Positions 23,924-44,284 of a stretch of DNA of 64,000 nt are shown piece by piece; within the stretch, counting starts at the first letter, position 1; each line of letters starts with the position of its first letter. The notes under the pieces are model-generated. The model did not search any database. It saw only the letters and a program-made list of their open reading frames with translations, and was not told the origin of the DNA. The DNA lies in contig PHBP01000006.1 of assembly GCA_002842035.1 (NCBI GenBank), positions 85,688-149,687 on the forward strand, given 5' to 3'. This DNA comes from Candidatus Cloacimonetes bacterium HGW-Cloacimonetes-2 (GTDB lineage Bacteria; Cloacimonadota; Cloacimonadia; Cloacimonadales; Cloacimonadaceae). The translations under genes were made by a program, and so were the position numbers.

Positions 23924-23997
23924 TGGCTGGGATGGGAGGACTTGAACCCCCACGTACGGATCCAGAGTCCGCTGTCCTACCATTAGACGACATCCCA
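23924..23997 (-). tRNA. tRNA-Gln (anticodon CTG)
   Basis: A 74-base cloverleaf on the minus strand. The acceptor stem is TGGGATG/CATCCCA, the discriminator is G and CCA is encoded. The anticodon loop CTCTGGA gives CUG. The T-arm contains GGTTCAAGTCC. It is the last gene of the four-tRNA cluster. Confidence 0.95.
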
Positions 23998-24034
23998 GCA
24001 GGAAAACAAGGGTATGTATTGTACTCAAGAAATA

Positions 24035-24109
24035 TGGCTGGGCAGGGAGGATTCGAACCCCCGGATGGCGGGACCAAAACCCGCTGCCTTACCGCTTGGC
24101 GACTGCCCA
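24035..24109 (-). tRNA. tRNA-Gln (anticodon TTG)
   Basis: 75 bases on the minus strand. The acceptor stem is TGGGCAG/CTGCCCA with encoded GCCA. The anticodon stem GCGGG/CCCGC carries loop TTTTGGT, anticodon UUG. Close in sequence to the CUG isoacceptor next to it, consistent with tandem duplication. Confidence 0.95.
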
Positions 24110-24122
24110 GCATATTATTATC

Positions 24123-24214
<92 letters not shown>

Positions 24215-24240
24215 ATTTTGAGATCACACTATAAACTTTC

Positions 24241-24326
24241 TGGCGGAGGATGAGGGATTCGAACCCCCATGGGCATAACCCGGCGGTTTTCAAGACCGCT
24301 GCCTTACCAATTAGGACTAATCCTCC
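24241..24326 (-). tRNA. tRNA-Ser (anticodon TGA)
   Basis: 86 bases on the minus strand. The acceptor stem is GGAGGAT/ATCCTCC with encoded GCCA. The anticodon stem GCGGT/ACCGC with loop CTTGAAA gives UGA. The variable arm GGGTTATGCCC is long enough for serine. It is the first gene after the cluster promoter. Confidence 0.94.
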
Positions 24327-28398: not shown

Positions 28399-31300
28399 TT
28401 ACTTCATCAAGACCATCTTACGGGTGCTGCTATAGCTGCCGCAGAACATCTTGTAATAGTAGATTCCGCTGGAAACTGTGCGTCCCTGTTCATCATTACC
28501 TTCCCAGGTGGTGCTGTGGTGTCCGGCAGATTTGGTCTCATTGACCAGACGTTTTACCAACTGACCGCGCTGATTGTAGATTTCGATGCGGACAGGACCT
28601 GCATCCAGGACATCGTATTTGATCGTGGTGCTGGGATTGAAGGGATTGGGGATATTGCCCACCAGCCTGGTTTCCGTTACAGGAGCGTTTGGATCATTGT
28701 TATCCGAACCGATCACCATCACAAAGTTTACCGTGGTGGTTTGATCGGCATAGACTACAACGTCGCTGATCGTCTGAGTCTGGAAGCCATTGGCAGCAGC
28801 AGTAACATTGTAAACCCCTGTTTCTGCTACAATTACATAAGCACCGGAGTTGTTGGTCGTGGCAGTATAAGTACCTGCTGTGATGGCTGCTCCGGGGATA
28901 GGCTGATTGGTGGGAGTGCGAACCACACCGCTGATCATACCGGTCTGGGTGAGATAGACGATGCTATTGGAGAAGGACGGGCTGGACATCAGGTCGTTCG
29001 TATAGACTGAGCGAACTGCCCAGAGATATGCTCCATCGTTGATATCTCCCCAGCCAAGATCGGTGTAAGCAGGATTGGTGATCGTATTGGGCGTCAGGAG
29101 AGTCCAGTTATTGGGATTGGCTTCTTGTCCGGAGACTAATCTCCATACTCTGTAGCCCACCAGGGAGCGTTCGGAATTGCCGTTGTAACGCATTGTATTG
29201 GGAGATGGCAATTGAGCTTCTCGGCGTACAATGCCTTGCTCGATCGCTCTGGAAGGGGCGGTATTGGGAATTGTGGCTCCGTTATCACGATTTGCTCTTT
29301 GGGAACGCATCTGCATCTCACCCCAGGCAAAGCGGATAGTATCAATGTCATTGCCAATATAGACGTTGTCGATAAACCAAGTGTACCAGAGACCATCGTT
29401 TGATGGAGGATCCACAGCGTGCCAGGCAAGCTTGACTTCCTGTCCGGCATATGCGCTCAGATCGACCAGGATCGGAGTCGCATAGTAGTTCCATCCGCCG
29501 GTTTGGGCGCTGGCATCCCAGAGGACAGTCCAGTTTGTACCATTATCGACTGAGGCTTTGATGTAATAGTGATCTCCGGAAGTGGAGCCCAGGAAGACAT
29601 AGGAATCAAAGCTGAGCGAAGCCTGAGGCGGGCAGAAGAAGGTAGGCGTGATCAGCCATTCGTCTTGATGCTCATAGCTCCACCAGAGTCCGGCCTGCCA
29701 TTCTCCCTGGGTAGGAGCGACGGTGCTGGTTCCGATAGTAATAGTGCCAAATCTGCACCAGGTCGGGAAGACACCGTTGGCATTGGCAGCGCCGGTATTG
29801 GTGATGTTTTGAGTCCAGCCGAGAGGCGGGAAGGTGTTGCTTTCAAAGCCTTCGGTAAGCTCCTGGGCATTGGGATCGGGCGGCAACCAGTGGATGTTAA
29901 CTGCCTGATTGGTCGTGGTTACCTCGGCAAGTACATCTCTGGGCGGATAAGCCATCTCTGCGAGGGTGATATTTCCCATCGAGTGGTTTGTAGCTCCGAC
30001 CGTAATACTGCCTGTTTGCGGGCTGTATCCGGGATTCATAATTGTGTAGTTGTAAGTCTGGTTTGCATATACCCCGGGTATCGTGAAGGCGCCTGTGGCA
30101 TTTGTATTGGCAGTGTAGCTTTCATACCCTGTGAGGCTGATGGCAGCGCCATTGATACCGGAGCCTGTATCGCTGGCAAGGACGGTACCGGTCACATTGA
30201 CCAGAGGCAGTTGGATCATCACTCCATCCAGTGTGAGCGTAATGTCTTCCTCGATCTCAGTATCCGGGAAGCTGAGGTTTTGATAGCCGTGTTTGCTGAA
30301 TATGATATCGTAGTCATCTGCAATGATGTTGTTTATGCTGTATTGACCCTGGGCATTGGTAATGGTGCTGTAGTCTGAATCGAGCAGTTGAACCTGCACA
30401 CCCGGCATAGGCTGGTTTGAAGCATTGCGGATAGTGCCGTTCAAGTGACCCACTCCACCGGGAACTATCAGAAGCGTGGTCATCGGGAATTGCCCGGTGA
30501 GGGTGCCTTCTTCAGGATTTGCAGGATCAAAGGCTGTACCATCTGAATAGAGATGGCGGCTGCGGGTAGTACCGGTGGTGGAACACTTGAAATATGACAT
30601 ACTGCTGTAGTATTGTGTGTCCATCGGGCGCTGTACCATCACGACCAGGTTTTGCCCATTCAGATACAGATAAGGAGTGATGAAGGGGATATTGATGGTG
30701 TTTTCACCGGCAGGATAGTTCACATTGCCATCAAAGACCAGAGTAAGCTCTGTGGAAGGTATCCATCCTGTTGATAGATCAGGCTGAGTGGTAGTTCCGA
30801 GCCAGACCTTGGTCGGCATATTATCCAGGGCCGAGGCTTGGGTGAAGTTGTTGTAGAAGTTCAAGCCTTGTATAATCCCTAGCGTTCCGCCCAGCTCTGT
30901 GGCAGGAATGACCATCTCAAAGAGGCTGTTCATCCAATAGAAGTTGATGGGAAGCAGGGCATTTTCTGCACCCGTGCCAATGGTGAGATTGACCAGTCCT
31001 GCCGGGAAGACGTTCACATTAAAGTTCGGTGACTGGTCGTTGATAGTGTTCTGATCCCCGGTGAGCACTGTCTTGGCATAGATGAAGCCTGGACCTTCGG
31101 TAGTGGGTGTCCAGCTAACGGGAACCGTTACACTTTGGTTTGCAGGAACTGCCGTGCCTGCTGCAGAGCCGACCTCGACATCACCTGCTGTATAGAGCTT
31201 TACCTGGTAGTTGGATTGGGTATTGGTGCCCCAGTTGAAGACAGTGACAGCGTAGTTCGTAGCCATCCCAACGTTTGGAGTGGTATTTCCGGTAATACTG

Positions 31301-34300
31301 AGGGCAGCCAGATCGTTCTGAGGCGTAATCTCAAAGAGCACATCATCAACATAGATGCTGCGATAGGTGCCTCCACCGTGACGGAAAGCAATGTAGTGCC
31401 CGGTTCCTGTGTAAGAAACGAAGGGAACAACATACTGCGTCCAGTTTGCGCTCAAGCTTACCTGTTGCACCAGACTAAAGGTTCCGGGATTCTGGGGATC
31501 GGTCATCACACCTATATCCAGGAGGTAGTTGTCGCTGCCACGGGCATAGAACTTGGTACGCATCGTAGGTAGCTGGAAGGTGTTTGCCAGGGGAGGTGCG
31601 ATCAGGATCAGGGTAGCTGCGGTATCAGAGATCGTCGTCAGGGCTACGGAGTTTGGCGCGCTCTGGGCAGTGCTGGTATTGGTTGTCACTGTTCCGGGAG
31701 TGCCGGTGCCTTGCATTATCCTGCTCCAGGTTACTGGCAAGGCAGGAGCGGTGACGGCGTCAAAGTTCTGCAGATAAGGCAGAGTGGAGATAGTCGCATC
31801 AATGCAGTTTGCACTGAGATTCACAATGTGAGTCTGTCTGGAACGGGCACTGCTACGCTGAGGAGTGGGCATATTATCATCAAAAGTGATAGTAGCTGCG
31901 TGCTCGCCCACAGCAGTCGGATTGTAACTCACTGTAAACTGGAAGCTCTGCCCAGTGGACAAGGTAACTGGCATAGCAGGCATATTCTGAACAGTGTAAT
32001 AAGGAGACCCAGCCAGATTTGCTGAATTGATCACCAGAGGTCCACCTCCTGCATTGATAACAGTGAAGCTTTGGCTGTGGCTGGTATTGAGCAGGACTGT
32101 GCCAAAGTTACGGTTTTCCGGGCTGATCAGGAAGACCGGCTCGTCAGAGAGCGGAGTCATCTGGAAGGTTGTCTTGGGGAAGTTTCCGCTCAGAGTGGAA
32201 CCATCAGGCGGAGCAGCAGGATCAAAGAGAGTGGAATCGCTCTGGATGTTTCTGCTGCGGGTATTGCCTATCTGCTGAGTGGCAAAGTTATTGCTTGAAT
32301 TATAATACTGCGTATCCATCGGGCGGTTCACCAACATCACGAGGTTACCGCCTGTGTAGTTAAAGGGAGTCTGCAGCGGGATCACGATAGCATTGGTGCC
32401 TATCGGATAGTTCACGGTACCATCAAAGACCAGAGTAAGCTGTCCTGATGGTATCCAGCCGGCAGAGAGATCCTGCTGTTGCGTGATGCCCAACCAGATC
32501 TTGGTAGGCATATTAGGCAGGTTTTGTGTGAAGTTGTTATAGAAAGATAAGCTGTTGATTGTCCCTACCAGACCCATCTCCTGAGTGTAGTAGATAGTCT
32601 CAAAGAGGCTGTTGCGCCAGAACATATCAACCGGATATCTACCCAATTGCGATCCATCTCCCACAGTGATAGAGAGTGTTCCTGTGGGCTGGATGATTAC
32701 ATTGAAATTCGGTGATTGGTCGTTCAGGTTGTTCTCATCACCCGTAAGCACTGTCTTGGCATAGATGTAATAATCACCCACACCTGTAGGAGTCCAAGCC
32801 ACCTGCACCTGCACTGTAGCTCCTGCACCTACGGAGAGTCCCGGAGAGCTGCCCACTTCAATGTTCTCAGGATTATAAAGCTTTACCTGATAGTTTGTTT
32901 GAGTAGCTGTACCCCAGTTATAGACAGAGACCGTGTAGATGCTCTGGCTACCGGAAGAAGGCGTGGCATTACCGGTTATGCCAATGGCTGCTATGTCGTT
33001 GACCGGCACATACTCCAGCTCAAAGTTGTCGATATAGATGCTGGTATAGGTGCTGGTATTGCCATGCTTGAAGGCAATGTACCTACCCGTTCCGGTATAG
33101 CCGGTAAAAGGCACCACAAGCTGAGCCCATTCCGTATTGCAATTGACGCTGGCTACCTCAGTAAAGGTCGCAGCAGACTGCGGATCAGTCATAATACCCA
33201 CAGATAGCGCCATATTCGCTGAGCTCGCTCTGGCTCTGAATTTGATCCGCATTGCCGGGACATTCAGGTTGTTTGCCAAAACAGGCGAGACCAGTAGCAG
33301 ATTGGATGCCATATCATCGTAGTTATACATCTGAATGGCATTGGGAGCAGTGACCACCGTCCCGGTCTGGCTTACCAGATAGGAATTTGGCGTAGCTGCC
33401 TGCACTATCTTGCTCCAGGTAATCGGAATTGCCGGAGCAGTCACATCATCAAAATTGTGCACATACGGCAAAGTATAGATCGTAGAATCCAGCGCATTAC
33501 CGGTGATTGGCACCGTATGCACCTGCCGGGTGAGAGCATCCACGATCGTGATGGTTGCAGTATGTTCACCGGCTGCAGTGGGATTGTAATTCACCGTAAA
33601 GCTGAAATTCTGCCCGGTACTAAGGTTCTGCGGCAATGTCGGCAAGCCACTAAGAGTGAAGAAGGGACTGCCGCTGATGCTCACGGAGTTTATTCCGAGC
33701 GTACCGCCGCCAGCATTCATCACGCGGACAGTGCTGTTGTGGGCGCTATTCATCAAGACCTGTCCAAAAGCCACACTCGAAGGATTGACCATAAAGAGCG
33801 GGTCTGGCGAGAGCGGCGTCATATAGAAGGATGTCTTGGGGAATTGCCCGATCGGCGAGGTCTGTGGAGGTGCAGCCGGATCGAAAGTAGTACCATCCGA
33901 ACTGGCTCGCAAAGCCCTGTTAGTCCCAACCGTCTGGCTATCAAACCTGTCATTATAATTGTAATACTGGGTATCCATAGGACGATTGACCAGCATCACC
34001 AGGTTTCCGCCGGTATAGGTGAAGATAGTTTGTAGCGGAATCAGGATGGTATTCTGCCCGGAGGGATAGTTCACGTTGCCATCATAGACCAGGGTCAACT
34101 GCGTGGAAGGAATCCACCCTGCAGAAAGATCCTGTGCAGTGGTCGTTCCCAGCCAAATTTTGGTCGGCATATTGGGTAGATTGGTTACGAAGTTATTATA
34201 AAAAGCCAAGGCAGTGATATTACCCAGCCCGGTCATCTCATTGGCAAAGTAGATATTCTCGTAGAGGCTGTTGCGGTAATACATATCAACGGGCATCAGA

Positions 34301-35343
34301 GCCTGTTCTCCTCCGGCTCCGACCGTTACGACCAGCAAACCTGCCGGCATTACGGTGATATTCAGGATTGAGGTCTGGTCGTTTTGGGGATTGGCATCAC
34401 CTGCCAAAACAACTTGCCCCCGGATTGCTACCGGTCCTTCGACTGTGGGAGTCCAGGAGATTGGATAAGTCTGGATTTCATTGGGCTGAATGGTATTCCC
34501 GGGCATCGTTGCCAAAACTGTTCCGGTACTGTTTACCAAGTTCACACTATAGGTAGTCTGAGCTGCAGTACCGCGATTGCGAACCTGCACATTGTAAATA
34601 GTAGGAGCGTTCATACCCGGGGTCAGATTACCGGTAATGCTCATCGCCACGAGGTCATTGGGTGCGGCAACGGTCGGGATAAAGCTAAAGACCGTTCCGT
34701 TTGCCGGGAAGGTACTGATGCTGTTTTGAGCAACAGTCGTGGAGAATGATGCCGGAGCTGTCAGCGAAAGGCTGTAAAACCAGGTACTTCCTCCGGGAGG
34801 CATCGTAATACCGATCGAGGCAGAAGGATTGTTTGGAGTACCGGTTGCACTGCCATAGACAAAGTCGATCTTGCCATTCTCATAGAGTAATATCTGGAAG
34901 TTATGCTGGTTGTCTCCGGAATAGTTCCAAGACAGATTCTGGTACTGCACGGTAAAGATGCGGTTTGGAGCGGTGCCGCTCAACGCATAGGATGCCACCC
35001 CTCCGGAAAGACTCGTATCATCCCATAGAGGGGCAATGTAAGGGAAGGCTGAGGTGATTGCCATGTCGTTTGAGAGGTTTGATCCGGTCGCCTGGTTGCC
35101 CAAACCGATCCATCCGTTTGAGCTTACCTTTAGCGAACTATAGCCAACATCTCCATAAGGAAAGGTGAATCCAATCTGGATCTCATCAGAGAGAGCATCA
35201 TCCGTGGATATGCCATCTATGGTGGTTCCTGTGATTGGAGTGTAAGTAGTTGTGCTGGCAGAGAAAGAATAGAATTCATCGATCCCCGCGTAGGCCATAG
35301 CCAACAGCGCCGTTAGCAGGACAACGAGCATTGCTTTCTTCAT
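28399..35343 (-). CDS. Giant secreted repeat protein (2,314 aa) with sorting tail
   Basis: The largest gene in the window. A signal peptide (1-19) is followed by a beta-rich N-terminal domain. Three long homologous modules of roughly 550 residues then begin near 231, 782 and 1346. Each contains a CARDB-like 'SITGN.TP ... NWGT' block, a 'PTKIWLGTT..DLSAGWIPS' block, a 'FG.VL.N..H' block and a 'LPY..NFD.VTAPA' block. Next come two carboxypeptidase-regulatory-like domains (about 1630-1790), a choice-of-anchor-J domain (about 1804-1998) and a third regulatory-like domain (2133-2208). The FlgD-like sorting tail (IPNPFNPSTTIKYDV ... SSGIYYYKM) ends the protein. The C-terminal third is a paralogue of the protein at 9035-14299. 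Function is unknown; a structural or adhesive surface protein is inferred. Confidence 0.92.
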   Translation of the reverse strand: MKKAMLVVLLTALLAMAYAGIDEFYSFSASTTTYTPITGTTIDGISTDDALSDEIQIGFTFPYGDVGYSSLKVSSNGWIGLGNQATGSNLSNDMAITSAFPYIAPLWDDTSLSGGVASYALSGTAPNRIFTVQYQNLSWNYSGDNQHNFQILLYENGKIDFVYGSATGTPNNPSASIGITMPPGGSTWFYSLSLTAPASFSTTVAQNSISTFPANGTVFSFIPTVAAPNDLVAMSITGNLTPGMNAPTIYNVQVRNRGTAAQTTYSVNLVNSTGTVLATMPGNTIQPNEIQTYPISWTPTVEGPVAIRGQVVLAGDANPQNDQTSILNITVMPAGLLVVTVGAGGEQALMPVDMYYRNSLYENIYFANEMTGLGNITALAFYNNFVTNLPNMPTKIWLGTTTAQDLSAGWIPSTQLTLVYDGNVNYPSGQNTILIPLQTIFTYTGGNLVMLVNRPMDTQYYNYNDRFDSQTVGTNRALRASSDGTTFDPAAPPQTSPIGQFPKTSFYMTPLSPDPLFMVNPSSVAFGQVLMNSAHNSTVRVMNAGGGTLGINSVSISGSPFFTLSGLPTLPQNLSTGQNFSFTVNYNPTAAGEHTATITIVDALTRQVHTVPITGNALDSTIYTLPYVHNFDDVTAPAIPITWSKIVQAATPNSYLVSQTGTVVTAPNAIQMYNYDDMASNLLLVSPVLANNLNVPAMRIKFRARASSANMALSVGIMTDPQSAATFTEVASVNCNTEWAQLVVPFTGYTGTGRYIAFKHGNTSTYTSIYIDNFELEYVPVNDIAAIGITGNATPSSGSQSIYTVSVYNWGTATQTNYQVKLYNPENIEVGSSPGLSVGAGATVQVQVAWTPTGVGDYYIYAKTVLTGDENNLNDQSPNFNVIIQPTGTLSITVGDGSQLGRYPVDMFWRNSLFETIYYTQEMGLVGTINSLSFYNNFTQNLPNMPTKIWLGITQQQDLSAGWIPSGQLTLVFDGTVNYPIGTNAIVIPLQTPFNYTGGNLVMLVNRPMDTQYYNSSNNFATQQIGNTRSRNIQSDSTLFDPAAPPDGSTLSGNFPKTTFQMTPLSDEPVFLISPENRNFGTVLLNTSHSQSFTVINAGGGPLVINSANLAGSPYYTVQNMPAMPVTLSTGQSFQFTVSYNPTAVGEHAATITFDDNMPTPQRSSARSRQTHIVNLSANCIDATISTLPYLQNFDAVTAPALPVTWSRIMQGTGTPGTVTTNTSTAQSAPNSVALTTISDTAATLILIAPPLANTFQLPTMRTKFYARGSDNYLLDIGVMTDPQNPGTFSLVQQVSLSANWTQYVVPFVSYTGTGHYIAFRHGGGTYRSIYVDDVLFEITPQNDLAALSITGNTTPNVGMATNYAVTVFNWGTNTQSNYQVKLYTAGDVEVGSAAGTAVPANQSVTVPVSWTPTTEGPGFIYAKTVLTGDQNTINDQSPNFNVNVFPAGLVNLTIGTGAENALLPINFYWMNSLFEMVIPATELGGTLGIIQGLNFYNNFTQASALDNMPTKVWLGTTTQPDLSTGWIPSTELTLVFDGNVNYPAGENTINIPFITPYLYLNGQNLVVMVQRPMDTQYYSSMSYFKCSTTGTTRSRHLYSDGTAFDPANPEEGTLTGQFPMTTLLIVPGGVGHLNGTIRNASNQPMPGVQVQLLDSDYSTITNAQGQYSINNIIADDYDIIFSKHGYQNLSFPDTEIEEDITLTLDGVMIQLPLVNVTGTVLASDTGSGINGAAISLTGYESYTANTNATGAFTIPGVYANQTYNYTIMNPGYSPQTGSITVGATNHSMGNITLAEMAYPPRDVLAEVTTTNQAVNIHWLPPDPNAQELTEGFESNTFPPLGWTQNITNTGAANANGVFPTWCRFGTITIGTSTVAPTQGEWQAGLWWSYEHQDEWLITPTFFCPPQASLSFDSYVFLGSTSGDHYYIKASVDNGTNWTVLWDASAQTGGWNYYATPILVDLSAYAGQEVKLAWHAVDPPSNDGLWYTWFIDNVYIGNDIDTIRFAWGEMQMRSQRANRDNGATIPNTAPSRAIEQGIVRREAQLPSPNTMRYNGNSERSLVGYRVWRLVSGQEANPNNWTLLTPNTITNPAYTDLGWGDINDGAYLWAVRSVYTNDLMSSPSFSNSIVYLTQTGMISGVVRTPTNQPIPGAAITAGTYTATTNNSGAYVIVAETGVYNVTAAANGFQTQTISDVVVYADQTTTVNFVMVIGSDNNDPNAPVTETRLVGNIPNPFNPSTTIKYDVLDAGPVRIEIYNQRGQLVKRLVNETKSAGHHSTTWEGNDEQGRTVSSGIYYYKMFCGSYSSTRKMVLMK

Positions 35344-40440: not shown

Positions 40441-41469
40441 ATGATGATAATACTGCTTAATACCGCATCTGCTCCCCTGATGTCCACCCTCTTGCCTCCG
40501 ATCCTGATCGTAGGCGGGATGGGACTGATCTTTGGGCTGGTACTGGCTATCGCCTCAAAGATATTTTTCGTAAAGGTTGATCCCCGCGTCACCGAGATTC
40601 TGGAAGCTCTGCCCGGTGCCAATTGCGGTGCCTGCGGAGAAGCCGGATGCGCCGGATATGCCGATGCAATCGTCAACAAAGGCGAATTGATCAACAAATG
40701 CGCACCCGGTGGCAGTAACGCTGTATTCGCAATCGCAAAGATAATGGGCGTCGAAGCCAGCACCACTATCCGCAAAGTATCCGTTATCCATTGCAGTTCC
40801 GGTGGTTACACAAACACTAACTGGCGCTATTCCTACGAAGGTGTGAGCTCTTGCAAAGCCGCTGTCAACATTGCCGGCGGACCAAACCGCTGCGATTACG
40901 GCTGTATGGGGCTAAACGACTGTATGAACGCCTGTATGTTTGATGCCATCAGCCTCGACGAAAACGGCATCCGCGTAATCAATTACGACCGCTGCACCGG
41001 CTGTGGAGCTTGCGTTGTCGCCTGCCCGCGTCAATTGCCCCAGCTTGTCCCGATCGACCACTGCGTCTATATCAAATGCTCGTCCAAAGATAAAGGCAAT
41101 GTCGCCAAGCAGTTATGCGGCAACAACGCACCCTGCATAGGATGCGGAATCTGCAGCCGTAACTGCCCCGTCAATGCCATCACAGTGAAGGACAATCTGG
41201 CGCGAATCGATTATGACGTCTGCATCAATTGCGGCATCTGCGCCACCAAGTGTCCCACTCACGCTATCCAGGATCTGCTTGCCGGCAAACGCAAAAAGGC
41301 AGAGATCGAGCCTGAGAAATGCATTGGCTGCACCATCTGCGCCAAAAACTGCCCTGTGAGCGCGATCTCCGGAGAGCTCAAACAGGTGCACGTCATTAAC
41401 AAGGAAGCTTGCGTGGGCTGCGAGATCTGCGTACAGAAATGCCCCAAGAAAGCAATTAAAATGGTCTGA
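40441..41469 (+). CDS. rnfB: Rnf complex subunit B with seven iron-sulfur motifs
   Basis: A 342-aa subunit that accepts electrons from ferredoxin. An N-terminal membrane helix (about 18-43) is followed by the Fe-S domain (CGACGEAGCAGYADAI ... INKC). Six ferredoxin-type cysteine sets follow: CDYGCMGLNDCMNAC, CTGCGACVVACP, CIGCGICSRNCP, CINCGICATKCP, CIGCTICAKNCP and CVGCEICVQKCP. The last pair (from about 285) resembles the C-terminal dicluster domain of NuoF/HydB-type proteins and extends beyond shorter proteobacterial RnfB. It is the last gene of the operon and ends before a strong terminator. Confidence 0.95.
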   Translation: MMIILLNTASAPLMSTLLPPILIVGGMGLIFGLVLAIASKIFFVKVDPRVTEILEALPGANCGACGEAGCAGYADAIVNKGELINKCAPGGSNAVFAIAKIMGVEASTTIRKVSVIHCSSGGYTNTNWRYSYEGVSSCKAAVNIAGGPNRCDYGCMGLNDCMNACMFDAISLDENGIRVINYDRCTGCGACVVACPRQLPQLVPIDHCVYIKCSSKDKGNVAKQLCGNNAPCIGCGICSRNCPVNAITVKDNLARIDYDVCINCGICATKCPTHAIQDLLAGKRKKAEIEPEKCIGCTICAKNCPVSAISGELKQVHVINKEACVGCEICVQKCPKKAIKMV

Positions 41470-41489: not shown

Positions 41490-41518
41490 AGGCGCGGGGA
41501 TAACCTGCGCCTTTTTTT
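41490..41518 (+). terminator. Terminator of the rnf operon
   Basis: AGGCGCGGG (41490-41498) and CCTGCGCCT form a 9-bp stem with loop GATAA, followed by seven to eight Ts, 20 bp after the rnfB stop. Confidence 0.9.
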
Positions 41519-41751
41519 GCTCTCAGTGGGCATCTGCTATGACCTAAGAATACACCCCAATTACTATGATTCACCGCGTACTTGGGGAATTATTCCTCTC
41601 GATTTGTGGATGGGATTCCACAACTTCTTGCTCAATATCAACACAAGCGCTAATTTCGGACTCAGGTTAATTACCTTAACTATAAGGCAATTTATGTATT
41701 TACGATTTACATTCAATTGGAACGCGGCTTGCGATTATATATAGCATAGTT

Positions 41752-41858
41752 CCGAAATCGGCAACCCCTGCCGAAGCTGCAGCCTGCCCCTGGCTGTGGC
41801 CATGACCTCCTAAGTCAAAACCTGTAAGCCCCCACCGCAAGGCGGGGGTTTTCTTTTT
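41752..41858 (+). ncRNA. Candidate small regulatory RNA with C-rich loops
   Basis: No gene lies on the plus strand here, yet there is a candidate promoter (TTGGAA 41717-41722, 17 bp, TATAGC 41740-41745) and a strong terminator at 41829-41858. Between them are a 6-bp hairpin TCGGCA/TGCCGA (41758-41774) with loop ACCCC, a 9-bp hairpin (41776-41800) with loop TGCCCCT, and a single-stranded CCTCCT (41806-41811), the exact complement of a Shine-Dalgarno sequence. C-rich loops plus a terminator are typical of RNAs that block ribosome binding sites (RsaE/RoxS type). I found no match to 6S, SRP, tmRNA or RNase P RNA. Confidence 0.45.
41829..41858 (+). terminator. Rho-independent terminator with no coding gene upstream
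   Basis: CCCCCACC (41829-41836) pairs with GGCGGGGG (41841-41848) around GCAA with one A-C mismatch, followed by TTTTCTTTTT. The nearest plus-strand gene already has its own terminator 310 bp earlier, so this one implies a separate transcript. Confidence 0.8.
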
Positions 41859-41880
41859 CCGGTGATTTTCCTTTTCTTGC

Positions 41881-41950
41881 TCCTTGAATTCTTGGGTGAT
41901 CCCCTAGTGATCCCCTAGTGATCCCCTAGTGACGACAAGGGGATCTCGGC
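41881..41950 (-). repeat. GGGATCACTAG tail module, isolated copy F
   Basis: Minus-strand order: GATCCCCTTGTCGTCACTAG, then GGGATCACTAG units three times, then CCAAGAATTCAAG. The right arm of the hairpin (ACAAGGGG) is replaced by CACTAGGGG, as in copy D. No double hairpin is attached. Confidence 0.7.
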
Positions 41951-42067: not shown

Positions 42068-44284
42068 TTACAAGTTCAATCTTTTCAGCAGATTGGCGTT
42101 GGTAACGACCGTGATGGAGCTGCCTGCCATTGCGATCTCAGCGATCACGGGATGAAGCAATCCAAGGATAGCCAAAGGTATGGCAATCAGATTGTAAAAG
42201 AACGCCCAAAACAGGTTTTGACGTATCTTTCTGAAGGTGGCGTTGGAGAGCTTGACAGCCTTGGGAAGCTGGGCTAAGTCACTGCGCATTATGGTGATGT
42301 CCGCCGCTTCAATGGCAATATCGGTGCCCTGTCCCATAGCGATGCCAATGTCGGCTTGCTTGAGGGCAGGAGCGTCGTTGATCCCATCGCCCACCATCGC
42401 AACTGCTCCATAGCTCTCCTGCAGCTTGCGGATGGCGGCAGCTTTCTCCGTGGGCAGGACGTTTGCCACCACATCGTCGATACCGCATTGAGCAGCAATG
42501 GCGCGGGCAGTGGTCTCGTTGTCACCGCTGATCATTATGCTCTTGATGCCGAGGGCGTGGAGCGCGCCGATGGTCTGCGAGGCTTCCTCTTTGAGAGTGT
42601 CCGCAAGCCGGAACACAGAGATAAGTTTATCATCATCAGCCAGATAGACACGGGTTGCGTGAGCCAGGTCGTTGCTTTCAGGCTCAGTAATTGAAATGCC
42701 AAGTTCCGTGAGATAAGACTCTTTGCCAACGTGATAGTTCTTGCCGTTGATGCTGCCGGAAACGCCTTTGCCGGGGGCATTACGGAAGTTATCCACCTTG
42801 TAGAGGGTGGAGAAAGGCAGTTTTGATGCGCGCAGGATGGCTTTGGCGAGAGGATGTTCAGAGAGTGCTTCCAGCGATGCAGCGAGTTTCATAGCCTCGG
42901 CTTCTTCACCCACAAGTGTATGATGCCGGAGCAATTCCGGCTGTCCATAAGTCAGCGTTCCGGTCTTGTCAAATGCCATAACTTTGATGTCTTTCATCCG
43001 CTGCAGAGCCTCACCATTACGGATCAGGATGCCGTGCTGCGCGCCCATACCGCTGCCTACCATCAGAGCGGTCGGAGTTGCCAGACCCAATGCGCAGGGA
43101 CAGGCAATCACCAGCACAGCGATTGCCGCCATCAAAGCGGCTGCCAGGCCGGTGCTGGGGAGATTGAGCCGGATGATCAGACCAATGGTCGTGGATATGG
43201 AGGTCATCAGATCCGGAAATACAAGCCAGATCAGGAAAGTAAGCGCAGCCAATACAAGGATCACAGGCACAAAGACCGAAGTTATTTTGTCCGCCAGGAC
43301 TTGGATCGGGACCTTGGAATGCTGGGCTTCCTGGACGAGCTTGATCACCTGGGCAAGGAAGGTGTCGCTGCCGATCTTTTGGGCTTCTACTTGCAAATAG
43401 CCGTCCTGAACGATCGTGGAGCCTAGAACGTGATCACCCGGTTTGCGGAAGACAGGCATTGATTCACCGGTCGCCATCGATTCGTCAAGCACGCTTTCGC
43501 CCATCACAATCACACCGTCTGTGGCGACTTTCATCCCTGGTTTGACGATGAAGATATCGCCTAGTTTCAGCTTGTGAATGGGGATTTCGATCTCTTGACC
43601 GTCCTGGAGGATCAGAGCCGTTTTGGCACCGAGATTGAGCAGTTTTCGGATTGCTTCGGATGCCTTGCCACGGGCACGGTATTCGAGGTAGCGTCCGGTC
43701 AAATGGAAGGCGAGAATCATCCCGGCAATACCGGTAAAGGCGTGTCCATCAATGCCTTTGACCACGAGAGAGAGAGGCAGTACCATCAGCGAAGAGATAG
43801 TGCCCAGGGCGATCAGGACATCCATATTGGCAGAGCCTGATCTTACTGATTTGAAGGCAGAGACATAGACGTTGCGGGCAGGAAAAAGCATCAGGAGGAC
43901 AGACAAGCCAAACATAATCCACAGATCTGAGTACATACTTAAGAGGTGAACCCCCCAGATCATATGGCTCAGCATCAGCTCCATAATGACGATGGTAACT
44001 GCCCAGGTGAGGATCATCCGGTCGCGTGATTGTTTCATCTTGAGTATCTGCTCGTCCTCAGTAAGGATGGCTTCTCCACGCAGGCTAAAACCTAGGGATT
44101 TAACGATTTTTTCCAGATCTTCGGGCTTTACTTTGCGGTCATCAAGCTCCAGGCTGGCTTCTTCGAGAGCGAGATTGACATGCGCCATACTGACGCCCGG
44201 CATCTCAGCAAGAGCCTTTTCTACTCTGGCGCTGCAGGATGCACAGTGCATTCCGTCAATACCGATGCTGATTTGTTTCTTCAT
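42068..44284 (-). CDS. copA: Copper-translocating P1B-type ATPase (CopA-like)
   Basis: A 738-aa inner-membrane metal pump. One N-terminal heavy-metal-associated domain carries GMHCASC (Cys14, Cys17). The intramembrane metal site CPC is at 395-397 (ACPCALGLATP), the phosphorylated Asp439 is in DKTGTLT, SEHPLAKAI is the HP nucleotide motif, and MVGDGINDAPAL completes the catalytic core. CPC points to Cu(I) or Ag(I) efflux. It is transcribed alone, with a strong promoter that overlaps a 14-bp dyad and its own terminator. No chaperone or regulator gene is adjacent. Confidence 0.95.
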   Translation of the reverse strand: MKKQISIGIDGMHCASCSARVEKALAEMPGVSMAHVNLALEEASLELDDRKVKPEDLEKIVKSLGFSLRGEAILTEDEQILKMKQSRDRMILTWAVTIVIMELMLSHMIWGVHLLSMYSDLWIMFGLSVLLMLFPARNVYVSAFKSVRSGSANMDVLIALGTISSLMVLPLSLVVKGIDGHAFTGIAGMILAFHLTGRYLEYRARGKASEAIRKLLNLGAKTALILQDGQEIEIPIHKLKLGDIFIVKPGMKVATDGVIVMGESVLDESMATGESMPVFRKPGDHVLGSTIVQDGYLQVEAQKIGSDTFLAQVIKLVQEAQHSKVPIQVLADKITSVFVPVILVLAALTFLIWLVFPDLMTSISTTIGLIIRLNLPSTGLAAALMAAIAVLVIACPCALGLATPTALMVGSGMGAQHGILIRNGEALQRMKDIKVMAFDKTGTLTYGQPELLRHHTLVGEEAEAMKLAASLEALSEHPLAKAILRASKLPFSTLYKVDNFRNAPGKGVSGSINGKNYHVGKESYLTELGISITEPESNDLAHATRVYLADDDKLISVFRLADTLKEEASQTIGALHALGIKSIMISGDNETTARAIAAQCGIDDVVANVLPTEKAAAIRKLQESYGAVAMVGDGINDAPALKQADIGIAMGQGTDIAIEAADITIMRSDLAQLPKAVKLSNATFRKIRQNLFWAFFYNLIAIPLAILGLLHPVIAEIAMAGSSITVVTNANLLKRLNL

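Follow-up and report, generated by a model that had tools for sequence, protein, structure and literature searches.

A putative sigma-54-dependent small RNA with an anti-Shine–Dalgarno-like core is conserved in Cloacimonadota

What does the gap between the rnf operon and the gene that follows it encode in this Cloacimonadota genome? We analysed the surrounding 64,000-nt stretch of DNA (the window), in which a sequence-only reading had proposed that a small RNA with C-rich loops, an anti-Shine–Dalgarno stretch and a terminator is encoded as a unit of its own. The setting it described was confirmed: rnfB, the last gene of the rnf operon (40441–41469, plus strand; Pfam Fer4 and FeS domains), is followed by a separate operon terminator (41490–41512, plus strand, by terminator scan), and the next gene, for a heavy-metal P-type ATPase (42068–44284, minus strand; Pfam E1-E2_ATPase and HMA), is convergent. 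The locus between them is real and larger than first reported, comprising an RNA of ~114 nt at about 41745–41858 on the plus strand, delimited by covariance models, covariation and fold, with a start inferred 12–13 nt 3′ of the −12 GC of its promoter; the gene is kept in relatives with its loops, anti-Shine–Dalgarno stretch and terminator. Right behind that terminator, an 11-bp unit (GTGATCCCCTA) occurs three times in tandem without a mismatch (41896–41932). Elsewhere the minus strand of the window carries a cluster of four tRNA genes (23927–24326) and a gene (28399–35343) whose 2,314-aa product has a signal peptide, repeated domains and a C-terminal segment that resembles, by eye, a sorting signal.

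When folded, the region 41717–41858 is predicted to form a pair of hairpins, then a small hairpin at the core and lastly a terminator. The proposed succession of structures was recovered in place, and the loops read ACCCC, TGCCCCT and, exposed, CUCCUAA. The fold energy of the RNA is −44.1 kcal/mol, with a z-score of −3.29 against 200 shuffles. Across 14 sequences, changes on both sides of a pair were detected in 6 of 7 pairs of hairpin 1 (41758–41774; loop 41764–41768), in all 7 of hairpin 2 (41776–41800; loop 41785–41791) and in 5 of 7 in helix 4, the stem of the intrinsic terminator (about 41826–41851, with a T-rich tail reaching 41858); over the whole structure this holds for 18 of 24 pairs, and 91.4% of cells in paired columns of the 14 aligned members are paired compared with 72.4% after shuffling and 30–48% in slid controls, although the alignment (A6) was fitted to the covariance model, which biases pair counts towards that model. 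Covariation lies mostly in helices 1 and 2, and no shuffle matched the observed covariation score. A spurious antisense row of alignment A5 was dropped. The simple terminator scan listed an overlapping weaker stem (41843–41861) and not the stem at 41826–41851. No small-peptide reading frame is conserved across genera among the members.

The best-conserved segment is a single, non-repeated sequence of 12–14 nt. Its anti-Shine–Dalgarno-like core ACCTCCTAAGTCAA (41805–41818, plus strand) is displayed on a small GAC/GTC hairpin or without pairing, and is identical in 12 genomes, reads AAGTCTAA in G068 and G004 and has diverged in G003; ACCUCCUAAGUC within it is almost invariant while the stems covary. 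The base 5′ of ACC is A in 6 of 14 aligned members, which costs the small hairpin one pair. For 12 members, fold prediction leaves the CUCC of the core largely unpaired, though to a lesser degree in G017, G019 and G035. Judged from these alignments, the kept element of the core is its sequence and not the small hairpin. The hairpin loops vary in sequence from genus to genus, with a run of at least CC in 15 of 16 members for hairpin 1 (G019 is not C-rich) and in 13 of 16 for hairpin 2 (the exceptions being G003, G017 and G028).

We assigned 16 genomes as members, namely 15 of the 49 genomes of the window's family and UBA6081, another Cloacimonadota genome. The exact core is present in 13 of 124 genomes of the phylum, 12 of them in the family and all 12 with the whole arrangement; G100 (L043) has the exact core without a visible sigma-54 promoter or hairpins and was dropped. 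A covariance model built from six sequences (R1) added G068 and G004, and a second model (R2) added G003 (E = 4.4 × 10−8). Scanning 84,980 species for core plus terminator returned ten matches, of which nine were Cloacimonadota (eight known members and, newly, UBA6081) and one an archaeon (L146), which was left out of the member set. We also discarded covariance-model matches outside the family (best E = 1.4 × 10−5) and weak ones inside it, and four short loci (L085, L088, L099 and L100) of the 19 considered are not part of the member count. Exact-core and covariance-model searches found nothing above noise in genera g4 and g6 of the family. Conservation among relatives, the lack of which would by the sequence-only reading have refuted the proposal, was found, including covariation of the stems. 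The locus has no match in Rfam 15 (best 19.7 bits against a gathering threshold of 55). Its arrangement, a separate sigma-54-type gene with upstream sites at nearly fixed places in a family without detected Hfq, sets it apart as a new family within a known kind of RNA. In two genomes of another family, f10, loci L086 (G054:C3:42160–42253) and L087 (G044:C20:445–537) show a hairpin, then AACCTCCTACCCTAAACCCTG, then a terminator, with a TTGACA-like promoter in front; this unit may be remotely related or may have converged on an anti-Shine–Dalgarno RNA.

A sigma-54-like −24/−12 element (GG-N10-GC) precedes the free-standing RNA in 16 of 16 members; in the window it reads TTGGAACGCGGCTTGC (41717–41732, plus strand; −24 GG, −12 GC). 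Thirteen of the 16 members have the form TGG-N8-TTGC, against 0.23 on average in shuffled sequences, and 15 have TGG-N8-[AT]TGC, against 0.54; strand and place for these counts were set from this same element, with no member lost thereby; the variant in G017 is TAG-N8-TTGC. The three members found by covariance models (G068, G004 and G003) also carry the element, which was not part of either model. The inferred start lies 58–71 nt 5′ of the core in the 12 folded members. The promoter proposed at the head of the unit is therefore present, 41717 being the first base of the conserved element, but it did not stand as a sigma-70 promoter: a sigma-70 scan at the locus found 0, with 1.8 expected by chance. 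Taken together, the promoter is better explained as being of the sigma-54 type. RpoN (sigma-54) was detected in 45 of the 49 genomes in the family, and the strict pattern YTGGMAYN5TTGC has 32 sites in the window's own genome compared with 6 for the reversed control. Several other sigma-54-type matches in that genome (L182, L191, L200, L204, L208 and L196) directly precede genes for signal-peptide or pilin-like proteins, which suggests that sigma-54 may control cell-surface proteins in this lineage.

Upstream of the promoter lies a dyad, TGTGGA-N6-TCCACA (41605–41622, plus strand; about −139 to −122), a putative enhancer-binding-protein site that is the sole TGTNGA-N6-TCNACA in the window, followed by a further half-site, TCAACA, 21 bp past the first (41638–41643, plus strand; about −106). 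Among the 16 members, TGTNGA occurs at −138 to −140 in 8, TCNACA at −125 to −127 in 10 and TCNACA at −102 to −106 in 13 (absent in G002, G014 and G003). Half-sites of the form TCHACA/TGTDGA number 37 over the 16 genomes compared with 4.07 in shuffles, a comparison that is descriptive since the members share ancestry and the motif was chosen after viewing the alignment. Spacings of 12 and 21 bp, nearly fixed, would suit putative activator dimers on one helix face, and the sites resemble an enhancer for a sigma-54 activator. The TGT-N12-ACA geometry is also that of TyrR boxes, a lead only. Given a sigma-54 promoter and an upstream putative activator site, expression of the RNA is probably triggered by a single signal rather than constitutive. 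A candidate for the activator, and a candidate only, is an NtrC-like protein with REC, sigma-54 AAA and HTH_8 domains (L275:895–2334), with orthologues in at least 13 member genomes and at least 11 genomes without a detected RNA; among the matches listed, none was found in members G009 and G011. A gene for a receiver-domain protein lies directly 5′ of the RNA in G009 and G019, with a look-alike, by its start sequence, in G014. All 49 family genomes match the sigma-54 activator domain PF00158, but so do all 14 control genomes, and a match by itself therefore tells little. In many family genomes PF00158 matches fall within open frames of ~1,400–1,460 aa (for example G000:C10:133803–134306), unusually long for a sigma-54 activator.

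We then asked what the RNA might act on. It had been suggested that it represses energy-metabolism genes, with rnf as its neighbour. In seven of the 16 members the RNA is the neighbour of rnfB at its 3′ end; the two share a strand in the window and converge in UBA6081, G002, G009, G017, G068 and G003. In the others the RNA is located elsewhere; adjacency to rnf is hence probably ancestral and dispensable for function. No divergent copies were found next to rnfB at E up to 1 at 24 loci in genomes without a detected copy there, and when 30 rnfB loci were searched as text for core plus promoter, the six already known came back together with one partial match, in G061. Among 41 genes of the window, the ribosome-binding site of rnfB formed the strongest duplex (−22.8 kcal/mol), yet the core pairs equally well with rnfB of non-members, and rnfB was not retained as a target. 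A test of 349 genes (400 kb of contig C2 of the window's own genome, plus the window) likewise gave no excess over shuffled tails (mean best duplex −20.7 for shuffled tails versus −20.1). The suggested repression of energy-metabolism genes thus found no support in pairing, and the link to rnf is one of neighbourhood. Sites of the form GACTTAGGAG-N3-22-ATG are not enriched across the 49 genomes (28 listed places, including 4 self-matches, versus 31 in the reversed control), and complements of the extended core with up to 3 mismatches are rarer in the window's own genome than the reversed control (136 versus 227).

Pairing with Shine–Dalgarno regions is nevertheless the most likely mechanism on sequence grounds, because the core repeats ACCUCCU, which we take to be the anti-Shine–Dalgarno end of 16S rRNA, the loops are mostly C-rich and Hfq was detected in none of the 49 genomes of the family, compared with 5 of 14 controls. 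Sigma-54-dependent small RNAs include Qrr, which works with an enhancer-binding protein, GlmY/GlmZ and CrcZ; Qrr needs Hfq, which was not detected in the family studied here. Our favoured explanation, which we consider probable, is that the locus is a free-standing, activator-dependent and Hfq-independent gene for an antisense small RNA that blocks ribosome-binding sites. A signal would turn on the activator protein, allowing sigma-54 polymerase to transcribe the RNA; the core, aided by the C-rich loops and a pyrimidine-rich 5′ end, would then pair with Shine–Dalgarno regions of selected mRNAs and shut off their translation without Hfq.

Other explanations account for parts of these data. The RNA could act as a sponge that uses the CCUCCU core and the C-rich loops to titrate a hypothetical RNA-binding protein, or another RNA, as CrcZ and CsrB titrate a protein, with mRNA pairing secondary. 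The display of several alike C-rich loops on variable stems fits such a role, as does the lack of enrichment of complementary ribosome-binding sites; however, conservation peaks in one non-repeated sequence, as for a pairing seed, and the loops are unlike between genera, and we regard a sponge as unlikely. A bolder form of the pairing model seems to us quite unlikely: a dedicated sigma-54 activator would turn on a mimic of the 16S rRNA anti-Shine–Dalgarno end, which would slow translation broadly or silence secreted and surface proteins together, again without Hfq.

It is also conceivable, though in our view very unlikely, that the RNA acts mainly on a single mRNA that differs between lineages, for instance that of a secreted or surface protein, instead of on many ribosome-binding sites. 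G014 contains a 16-nt perfect complement (GGTTTTGACTTAGGAG) immediately 5′ of a signal-peptide protein gene, and in the window's own genome GGTTTTAACTAAGGAGGA precedes the gene for a 902-aa signal-peptide protein (G000:C2:149982), the best leader of the 349; 10 of the 25 best leaders of that set are signal-peptide-like (one-sided P = 0.046, a crude test). Against a single target, shuffled tails pair equally strongly, the gain from core pairing beyond the Shine–Dalgarno match is no larger for secreted genes (P = 0.92, 349 genes) and the two candidate targets may not be orthologues; we treat both leaders as leads and not as results. Finally, what lies beside rnf might be no more than successive terminator hairpins or the remains of repeat DNA, with an ordinary sigma-70 promoter or none. 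Its position between converging genes, where terminators are common, and the AT-rich stretch 3′ of the promoter would suit this explanation, but the promoter and upstream sites are conserved, the stems covary and the core is frozen, also at places away from rnf, and these findings with the negative sigma-70 scan make it scarcely credible.

The favoured antisense RNA has counterparts in other bacteria. Alpha-r14 or cuckoo RNAs, represented by NfeR1 of Sinorhizobium meliloti, carry three identical CCUCCUCCC motifs, and NtrC represses NfeR1 (PMC10746234). The RNA described here resembles NfeR1 in its multiple hairpins, sequence-variable stems, unpaired anti-Shine–Dalgarno motif and putative wiring to an NtrC-type regulator, but differs in having one ACCUCCUAAGUC core and unequal C-rich loops, and in its putative activator site with a sigma-54 promoter. 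The identical CCUCCUCCC motif in three hairpins that marks cuckoo RNAs was not found here, since the loops differ and the core reads CCUCCUAAG, and the Rfam comparison revealed no sequence relation to them. RoxS/RsaE of Bacilli and staphylococci are likewise free-standing RNAs with several C-rich regions, which pair with G-rich mRNA sites; they are, however, under Rex and ResDE, and they belong to a different phylum, with no Rfam match here (PMC5419742). CJnc230 (FlmE) of Campylobacter jejuni is RpoN-dependent and has a putative anti-Shine–Dalgarno stretch between two stem-loops but is processed from flgE mRNA, whereas the present RNA has a separate gene with its own upstream sites (PMC11187230). 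These comparisons, which for CJnc230 covered Rfam, revealed no homology to NfeR1, RoxS or CJnc230.

Our literature search, which lay mostly outside subscription journals, found no report of a small RNA in Cloacimonadota. The locus provides a well-supported small regulatory RNA for this phylum, which is frequent in anaerobic digesters, and the sequence by itself reveals the promoter, putative activator site, structure and seed of that RNA. The locus probably adds another case of a sigma-54-driven small RNA in bacteria where Hfq is not found. Should the RNA prove to be an anti-Shine–Dalgarno mimic, it would be the first such riboregulator in Cloacimonadota, an uncultured phylum.
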